From: Ectopseudomonas mendocina
Lineage (GTDB): Bacteria; Pseudomonadota; Gammaproteobacteria; Pseudomonadales; Pseudomonadaceae
Length of the DNA: 64,000 nt
NCBI RefSeq assembly: GCF_016008875.1
Contig: NZ_JADTQG010000008.1
Location: forward strand, 62,001 to 126,000
Direction of reading: 5' to 3'
Position numbers and translations under genes: made by a program. The number at the start of each line of letters is the position of its first letter. Within the stretch, counting starts at the first letter, position 1. The notes beneath the pieces were generated by a model, which had not been told where the DNA came from, ran no database searches, and saw only the letters and a program-made list of their open reading frames with translations. Shown here piece after piece: positions 45,170 to 47,415 of this stretch.

Positions 45170-45469
45170 ATGACTTATCGTCACCTGCTCGCCCTTGCCC
45201 TGCCGCTGGCTGTGGCGCTGCCCGTTTCCGCTGCCGAGTGGTCGGATAGCGCGAAGAACGAGTTCGTTCAGCAGTGCATCGCTGGCGCGCCGGCGGGATA
45301 TGAGGAGCCACAATTGCGAGCTTATTGCGACTGCGCCGCGACCAAGGTCAGTGAAGAGTTCAGTGAGGCCGAGCTGCACGAGATGACCCGTCAGTCCCCT
45401 CCCGACACTGCCATGCAGCAGCGCCTGGTGAATGCGTCCAGTAGCTGCAGCAGCAAGCTCAAGCCGTAA
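45170..45469 (+). CDS. Small exported cysteine-containing hypothetical protein
   Basis: 99 residues from the ATG at 45170, after AGAAGGAG. Signal peptide about residues 1-21 (VSA/AE). The mature 78 residues carry Cys in VQQCIAG, two in AYCDCAA, and one in SSSCSSK, a pattern of likely two disulfides. No domain is recognised. It is divergent from ltaE and lies just before the DnaA-box-rich gap and glyA. Confidence 0.75.
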   Translation: MTYRHLLALALPLAVALPVSAAEWSDSAKNEFVQQCIAGAPAGYEEPQLRAYCDCAATKVSEEFSEAELHEMTRQSPPDTAMQQRLVNASSSCSSKLKP

Positions 45470-46161
45470 TCATCCATCTGAGTAGTTAGTGCGCGGTCAG
45501 GCCAGGGCCTTGTGGGCTCTGGCCTGGCGACGCATTTCCACAGCCAGTGCACAACACAGTCCACAGTATTTGTGCACAAGCTAAACCTATCTTATTGATC
45601 CTGCTCGATTTTTAGGCGATTTCCGGAAGGCCGCGGCAGCCCTGACTTGGAGCCTACGTCGAACAGGCTATGCACACTTTCATCCACATCTTCTGTGCAT
45701 ATCCCCAACCGTCTTTCTTCTTTTCAGCGGTCGCTGGTGGATAAGCCATGGGGCCTGCGCTGTGCAGATATCGACCTCACGCGCGGGGCTCAGAGCTGGT
45801 GAGCCCTGCACTCATCGATCGACAGCTTTTCCACAGGCTAATCCACGGCTTCTGTGCATGGCTCGCCTTGCTAACTAACTGATATCGATCAGGAAATGAT
45901 CGTTCCTCGGCAGCCCTCGCAGGCGCTGGCGCAGCGCGCTGTATGCACGGTTTATCCACAGCTTGATCCCCGCCATTTGTGCGCAAAACTGCAGCCTCGT
46001 ATCGACGCGCCTGATTGCGACACGCGGCATGTCGCAAACGAATGCTCTCGTGGCGTTGGCAGGCATCTGAGGGGGCAGGGCCGGCCCTACCATCGCTGCA
46101 CAGGGCCTTGCCGGCCCGTCAGTCCAAGACCGCCGTATACAGGCGCTGCAGGAGAGTCGAG
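45470..46161. other. 692-bp gap before glyA with a cluster of DnaA-box-like sites
   Basis: Sites compared with TTWTNCACA: perfect at 45827-45835 (TTTTCCACA) and 45952-45960 (TTATCCACA). One-mismatch sites at 45534-45542, 45570-45578 and its overlapping complement 45571-45579, 45668-45676, 45680-45688, and on the minus strand at 45694-45702 and 45736-45744. Several two-mismatch copies lie between. An AT-rich stretch is at about 45579-45622. The array looks like a replication-origin or DnaA-titration region rather than an ordinary promoter. No rpmH or dnaA gene is near, and I found no supportable gene within the gap. Confidence 0.65.
46015..46037. promoter_or_regulatory. Perfect operator-like dyad upstream of glyA
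   Basis: TTGCGACA-N7-TGTCGCAA, perfect 8-bp arms, centred about 136 bases before the glyA ATG. The right half includes, on the minus strand, GCGACATGCC, the same ten bases found in the gbcA/gbcB control region. It is a likely binding site for a regulator of the betaine/sarcosine genes. Confidence 0.6.
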
Positions 46162-47415
46162 ATGTTCAGCAAGCAAGATCAGATTCAGGGTTACGACGAC
46201 GAGTTGCTCGCGGCGATCAATCAGGAAGAACGCCGTCAGGAAGAGCACATCGAGCTGATCGCCTCGGAAAACTACTGCAGCCAGCGTGTGATGGAAGCAC
46301 AGGGCAGCGGCCTGACCAACAAGTACGCCGAAGGCTATCCGGGCAAGCGTTATTACGGTGGTTGCGAGTATGTCGACAAGGTCGAGCAGCTTGCCATCGA
46401 TCGCGCCAAGCAGCTGTTCGGCGCCGACTTCGCCAACGTTCAGCCGCACTCCGGCTCGTCCGCCAACGCCGCTGTCTACCTGGCGCTGCTCAACGCGGGT
46501 GACACCATTCTGGGCATGAGCCTGGCCCACGGCGGCCACTTGACCCACGGCGCCAAGGTGTCGTCCTCGGGCAAGCTGTACAACGCCGTGCAGTATGGTC
46601 TGAACCCTGCCACTGGCCTGATCGACTACGACGAGGTCGAGCGTCTGGCGGTCGAGCACAAGCCGAAGATGATCGTCGCCGGTTTCTCCGCCTATTCCAA
46701 GACCCTCGATTTCCCGCGTTTCCGTGCCATCGCCGACAAGGTCGGGGCGCTGCTGTTCGTCGACATGGCGCACGTGGCGGGTCTGGTCGCCGCTGGCCTG
46801 TATCCCAACCCGATTCCGTTCGCCGATGTGGTCACCACCACTACCCACAAGACCCTGCGCGGTCCGCGTGGCGGCCTGATCCTGGCCAAGGCCAACGAAG
46901 AGATCGAGAAGAAGCTTAACTCTGCCGTATTCCCCGGCGCCCAGGGCGGCCCGCTGATGCACGTGATCGCAGCCAAGGCCGTGTGCTTCAAAGAAGCCAT
47001 GGAGCCTGAGTTCAAGGCTTACCAGCAGCAGGTGATCGACAACGCCCAGGCCATGGCCAAGGTCTTCGTCGAGCGCGGTTTCGAAGTGGTCTCCGGCGGT
47101 ACCGACAATCACCTGTTCCTGCTCAGCCTGATCAAGCAGGGGCTGACCGGTAAGGAAGCCGATGCTGCCCTGGGCCGCGCCGGCATCACCGTGAACAAGA
47201 ACGCCGTGCCGAACGACCCGCAATCACCGTTCGTGACCTCGGGCATCCGCATTGGTACCCCGGCCGTGACCACCCGTGGTTTCAAGGTCGCCCAGTGCGA
47301 AGCGCTGGCTGGCTGGATCTGCGACATCCTCGACCACCTCGGAGATGCCGATGTCGAGGCGCAGGTGGCCAAGCTGGTGGCCGGGTTGTGCGCGGATTAC
47401 CCGGTCTATCGCTAA
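46162..47415 (+). CDS. glyA: Serine hydroxymethyltransferase GlyA
   Basis: 417 residues from the ATG at 46162, after GGAGAG. It interconverts glycine plus methylene-THF with serine plus THF, using PLP bound at the lysine in [15 protein letters not shown]. Here it is at the head of the sox operon, where it would turn the glycine and methylene-THF made by sarcosine oxidase into serine. It is probably the catabolic paralogue; another glyA copy elsewhere is expected but cannot be seen. Confidence 0.96.

Follow-up and report, generated by a model that had tools for sequence, protein, structure and literature searches.

Which function can be assigned to a cluster of DnaA boxes that is as dense as an origin and lies outside oriC? 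We address this question for a locus in a Pseudomonas genome of 5.1 Mb (44 contigs), where such a cluster precedes glyA1. The locus is situated in a stretch of 64,000 nt of contig C8, here called the window, whose preliminary description had proposed a second origin-like locus or a DnaA titration site. As detailed below, box density, architecture, and genus-wide conservation give good support to a locus outside oriC at which DnaA directs replication control. A second origin or plain titration is not the best fit, because the repeats share the geometry of the E. coli DARS cores (DnaA-reactivating sequences), which neither oriC nor datA of E. coli has.

Density of DnaA boxes upstream of glyA1

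Between 45534 and 45960 (427 bp), nine sites match TTWTNCACA with at most one mismatch. Two are perfect (45827 and 45952) and seven carry one mismatch (45534, 45570, 45668, and 45680, as well as 45571, 45694, and 45736 on the minus strand), in agreement with the two perfect and about seven one-mismatch boxes counted in the preliminary description. The interval given there holds all nine sites, but the feature overruns its right end, as module 4 closes with a box at 45978-45986.

The next-best 427-bp segment within the 64 kb contains three sites. As a background, we analysed 400 kb of the same genome in 20 unbiased stretches of 20 kb each, which yielded 0.39 sites per kb and at most two per 427 bp, i.e. 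a Poisson probability of about 2.5e-13 per segment for nine sites or more. Stretches of this genome that were picked for an exact TTATCCACA have at most five sites per 427 bp, and oriC, directly upstream of dnaA, has eight; these densities were derived from lists of exact sites and sampled stretches rather than from a full scan. The cluster upstream of glyA1 is therefore as rich in boxes as a real oriC. Its density is far beyond chance, with nine sites versus at most two in the unbiased stretches, and the canonical oriC indeed lies elsewhere, with dnaA and its adjacent box cluster on another contig (C18). Searches against Rfam, of the whole window and, with an E-value threshold, around the gap, gave no credible match, and a tRNA scan found none.

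Exact copies of TTATCCACA are strongly enriched near dnaA, with about 16 sites in 47 kb (C18:1-47000; L007-L009), most of them intragenic. On the whole chromosome of G015, the interval from 2.06 to 4.11 Mb, presumably the half that contains the terminus, is free of them. The enrichment near dnaA may be compared with the origin-proximal DnaA-box density reported for E. coli (PMC12371093).

Architecture of the four-module array

Repeat analysis revealed a 38-nt unit that is present four times, at spacings of 123, 159, and 125. Each copy contains a 35-bp module of three DnaA boxes with start offsets of +0, +12, and +26, the first two on the plus strand and the third reversed, so that the 12/14 offsets are present in four of four repeats. 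Box quality varies, i.e. some boxes are perfect and others are several mismatches away from the consensus. We denote the units DARS-core-like modules.

Module 1 (45545..45579, plus strand) comprises boxes at 45545 (CAGTGCACA, plus), 45557 (CAGTCCACA, plus), and 45571 (TTGTGCACA, minus) and has a triad score of 17 out of 24. It is preceded at a distance of 11 bp by an extra box with one mismatch, ATTTCCACA (45534..45542, plus strand), which is kept in close relatives, and it is adjoined by an AT-rich element, CTATCTTATTGATCCTGCTCGATTTTTAG (45587..45615), which is near-invariant in five aligned sequences. Module 2 (45668..45702, plus strand) has boxes at 45668 (CTATGCACA, plus), 45680 (TCATCCACA, plus), and 45694 (ATATGCACA, minus), which are nearly invariant among close relatives; its score of 21 out of 24 equals that of E. 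coli DARS2. An isolated conserved box, TTATCCACC (45736..45744, minus strand), lies between modules 2 and 3.

Module 3 (45827..45861, plus strand; score 20 out of 24) consists of boxes at 45827 (TTTTCCACA, plus), 45839 (TAATCCACG, plus), and 45853 (CCATGCACA, minus). Next to it, the conserved block TTGCTAACTAACTGATATCGATCAGGAAATGATC (45868..45901) contains a candidate IHF site on the minus strand (45872-45884), which deviates from the consensus at one position here and at none in P. indoloxydans, and which is found at the same place in G008 and G012. Over all clusters, 27 IHF-like sites were counted versus 15 +/- 4 expected; such sites are weakly supported outside the close relatives. Module 4 (45952..45986, plus strand; score 19 out of 24) has boxes at 45952 (TTATCCACA, plus), 45964 (TGATCCCCG, plus), and 45978 (TTGCGCACA, minus). 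With R1, a profile built from 24 Pseudomonas modules, modules 1, 3, and 4 score 26.4, 35.5, and 29.7 bits, respectively; these values are not independent, because the four modules of the array belong to the training set.

The array is flanked by a small ORF (45170-45469) and by glyA1 (46162..47415, plus strand; serine hydroxymethyltransferase, Pfam SHMT PF00464), a landmark outside the element, which is followed by soxB, soxD, and soxA. In an alignment with P818, P. indoloxydans, G008, and G012, the boxes are among the best-conserved blocks of the gap, together with the AT-rich element, the block with the IHF-like site, and the glyA1-proximal region from about 46000 onwards. The latter contains a conserved palindrome, TTGCGACA-N7-TGTCGCAA (46015-46037), and a conserved leader that reaches glyA1. 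Both are probably the operator and leader of the glyA1-sox genes and separate from the DnaA array.

Triads with scores of at least 17 out of 24 occur four times in the 64 kb (17, 21, 20, and 19), every one inside the cluster. A Markov null predicts about 0.3 per 64 kb, and one was found in the 400 kb of unbiased sequence from the same genome. An offset scan of 17x17 pairs in 24 Pseudomonas clusters returned 59 triads for the combination (12,14), 27 for the next one, and a median of one. Of 43 double boxes with the 12-bp offset, 31 have an opposed box scoring at least 6 at offset 14, and each of the other offsets accounts for at most six. A strict triad pattern (at most three mismatches) had 19 matches in seven Pseudomonas genomes, and the reversed control had none. 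The profile had 9-19 matches per genome at E<=1 (eight genomes).

The spacing of modules across the 24 clusters is confined to a few values, i.e. about 124, 139, 145, 150, 161, 172, 182, and 193 bp. A helical phasing of the ladder 139/150/161/172/182/193 (p 0.002) was discarded as post hoc; after inclusion of the 124 and 145 classes the p value is 0.79.

Distribution of the arrays across Pseudomonas

Arrays of up to eight modules recur near gbcA, ltaE, or glyA1 in most of the pseudomonads examined. Comparison of the glyA upstream gap, which the preliminary description had suggested as a check, revealed that close relatives, including P. indoloxydans, retain the cluster in front of glyA1. Beyond these, the glyA1 gap is mostly empty and the array is found in the neighbourhood.

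P. argentinensis, P. straminea, and G001 have seven to eight modules between gbcB and ltaE, and most other complete genomes have the array in the gap past the gbcA 3' end. In P. citronellolis and P. pseudonitroreducens, the box clusters adjoin ltaE and the triads are weaker. The genes gbcA and glyA1 are 43 kb apart in G018, where the array remains with gbcA. In fluorescens-type genomes, the modules are oriented oppositely relative to glyA1. No array was found within 20 kb upstream of glyA1 in G003, and that of G041 is located elsewhere, at 1.11 Mb. The only glyA found in G014 has a lower identity (80%). The small protein encoded next to the array fails as a locus marker outside the close relatives. 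Because the arrays sit in different gaps and orientations across the genus, they most likely do not serve glyA, and several of the gaps have no promoter because they are convergent.

The distance between the array and dnaA is about 330-650 kb in most genomes. For 14 complete genomes, its median is 8.4% of the genome, with outliers at 5.9%, 6.1%, and 17%.

Some further features were noted at these loci. In the fluorescens-type arrays (L182-L192), the intervals between modules repeatedly contain TTGATCAAAAAATGATCA, an AT-rich inverted element, and many modules are preceded by the inverted repeat AGCC..GGCT. Within the glyA coding sequence, TTATCCACA or a near match is present on the minus strand at base 210 in several loci (L074, L075, L077, L082, and L095), a position in glyA1 that is shared by several species.

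The array at gbcA/glyA1 is the densest locus of its kind seen in the source genome. At other module loci, gene names were assigned by eye from translations. Beside rarD, two DARS-core-like triads are spaced by 112 bp (L005 5471-5617; contig C8 at about 145.5 kb, outside the window). Pairs at about 111-113 bp recur in G003, G015, G034, and G041, exact boxes at that spacing of about 112 bp are present in G011 and G017, and another recurrent pair has a spacing of about 200 bp. A single strict triad, CTGTTCACAAGGTTATCCACA..TGTGGATAA, which is very close to E. coli DARS1, was found in G015, G034, G018, G029, and G003 (L207-L211), in most cases next to a small conserved gene (MKAPWNF...) and often with an FKBP-like gene on its other flank. 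G000 and G012 have variants in a comparable location (L212 and L213). G000, G012, G041, and G014 have a multi-module array near azurin-like, LOG-like, and HupE-like genes (L011, L222, L216, and L217); in G041, this array has seven modules that alternate at 167-169 and 193-194 bp.

Comparison with E. coli loci and candidate functions

The DARS cores of E. coli contain three boxes with identical spacing, of which box I has the orientation opposite to that of II and III (PMC5742627). In MG1655, the offsets and orientations of the DARS1 and DARS2 cores are identical to those of the Pseudomonas module, i.e. three boxes, offsets of 12 and 14, and an opposed outer box, and in both organisms they lie in non-coding DNA. 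As a control, 313 kb of chosen E. coli stretches, not the whole genome, were analysed, which included eight published DnaA-bound double boxes; triads scoring at least 21 were found only at DARS1 and DARS2. The third box scores 7 at DARS1 and DARS2, versus 2-4 at oriC, datA, nrdA, polA, purH, and mioC. The 12-bp pair alone proves little, because DnaA generally prefers double boxes 2-3 bp apart (PMC11317965); the discriminating feature of a DARS-type module is the opposed third box. When a profile derived only from Pseudomonas was applied unfiltered to 13 kb of E. coli, its best match was the DARS1 core and its second-best the DARS2 core, with weak E-values of 0.011 and 0.029; with default filters, the same profile had no match in the E. 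coli loci, DARS included.

Four copies of the DARS three-box arrangement and similar arrays across the genus suggest that the array most likely helps to time chromosome copying as a control site. Judged from sequence, we favour an interpretation as four tandem triads of the DARS-core type and a counterpart, in Pseudomonas, of the DnaA-reactivating sequences of E. coli, with a probability of slightly less than 0.6. The recharging mechanism comes from work on E. coli (PMC5742627, PMC4245941). Applied to the array, ADP-DnaA would bind to the three boxes of a module after initiation, the opposed box (+26, reversed) would place two DnaA molecules head to head, and ADP would be released. The freed DnaA would take up ATP and be competent for oriC again, and modules in series may both increase the recharging capacity and retain DnaA. 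The array is thus predicted to bind DnaA, to promote nucleotide exchange, and to affect the timing of initiation. A second, Hda-sized DnaA relative is encoded alongside DnaA in 20 of the 20 genomes searched, so that formation of ADP-DnaA is expected.

The array differs from the E. coli sites in several respects. Each E. coli DARS has a single core, whereas four are in tandem here and up to eight elsewhere. The middle box is the strong one in E. coli DARS; in Pseudomonas arrays it is usually the first, and the middle box of the fluorescens-type arrays is degenerate (GCGCCAACA). The neighbouring genes and the place in the genome, usually about 8% of its length from dnaA, are also different. In DARS2, IHF and Fis bind at fixed distances from the core; for IHF, the array has the candidate site at 45872, which is conserved in the close group. 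DARS1 adjoins uvrB and DARS2 adjoins mutH in E. coli and V. cholerae (PMC6090056), but neither gene is beside this array, which has the small ORF and glyA1 as neighbours, and inspection of the other module loci by eye revealed neither of them; we therefore do not call the array DARS1 or DARS2. The order of box strengths and a position like that of datA pull away from the DARS interpretation.

For these two reasons, a DnaA sink, acting by titration or by datA-like inactivation, remains the main rival. The array would bind many DnaA molecules soon after its replication and lower the initiation potential, and the triad geometry would merely provide tight cooperative binding. Four triads (12 boxes) plus extra boxes within about 450 bp are compatible with a sink, and so is the general preference of DnaA for closely spaced double boxes (PMC11317965). 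So is the distance from dnaA, as E. coli datA is more than 450 kb away from oriC (PMC4451416); datA, which promotes the hydrolysis of DnaA-ATP, is likewise a non-coding DnaA-box cluster with a possible IHF site. However, neither datA nor the other E. coli double boxes have the conserved third box that is opposed and stands at offset 14 (score of 4 at datA versus 6-7 in the array), and no tandem triad repeat was seen in datA. We regard a sink as less likely than a DARS-type array. In Bacillus subtilis and Streptomyces, DnaA boxes are also densely clustered in intergenic DNA outside the origin, and these clusters are thought to titrate DnaA, a likeness drawn from the literature alone.

A second origin, at which the box cluster and the AT-rich element would recruit the replisome and start replication, be it only when carried on a plasmid, is quite improbable. 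The box density equals that of oriC, and a conserved AT-rich element adjoins module 1. The AT-rich stretch of the preliminary description is real, but it is mild, with a lowest 60-bp GC content of 0.37 versus 0.27 at oriC. The cumulative GC skew keeps rising overall through the cluster and does not change sign, dnaA and its adjacent cluster are on a different contig, and the double box of E. coli oriC has no triad. For P. aeruginosa, two autonomously replicating segments, one of them dispensable, have been reported (PMC4403523, citing Jiang 2006). Two genomes of our set that were retrieved by the PA-IL family have a 343-aa frame and are therefore not regarded as P. aeruginosa. Like the array, its oriC2 is a second chromosomal segment in the genus that lies outside oriC1, and it replicates autonomously and is dispensable for viability; it could be this locus.

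Still less probable is a promoter element, by which DnaA would couple the transcription of glyA1-sox to the cell cycle: here the cluster precedes glyA1, and in E. coli, genes for nucleotide synthesis such as purH and nrdA have DnaA bound in front of them (PMC11317965), but most other pseudomonads carry the array 3-15 kb away, often in the opposite orientation and in convergent gaps without a promoter (gbcB-ltaE, or past the gbcA 3' end), the array of G018 is beside gbcA and far from glyA1, and glyA1 has a separate operator-like palindrome of its own.

To our knowledge, DARS sites have been described mainly from E. coli and its relatives and from V. cholerae, and a multi-core layout is not known from E. 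coli. According to previous reports, the DARS2 core is confined to relatives of E. coli among the gamma-proteobacteria (PMC4245941) or to beta/gamma species proximal to E. coli (PMC5742627), and a literature search, mostly without subscription papers, returned nothing that links DnaA-box clusters or DARS to Pseudomonas. Because profile and strict-pattern sites recur in other places, the genus seems to use several DARS-like loci. A broader DARS interpretation, to which we assign slightly less than even odds, is that initiation in Pseudomonas is controlled via tandem DARS arrays, with four to eight cores at gbcA/glyA1 and pairs or arrays elsewhere, which would have been retained throughout the genus despite relocation from gap to gap. 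If true, a conserved multi-core DARS would show how a large genus keeps its DnaA charged, and it would provide the field with a testable cis-element. It might also explain the long-standing puzzle of the second, dispensable replicating segment in P. aeruginosa.
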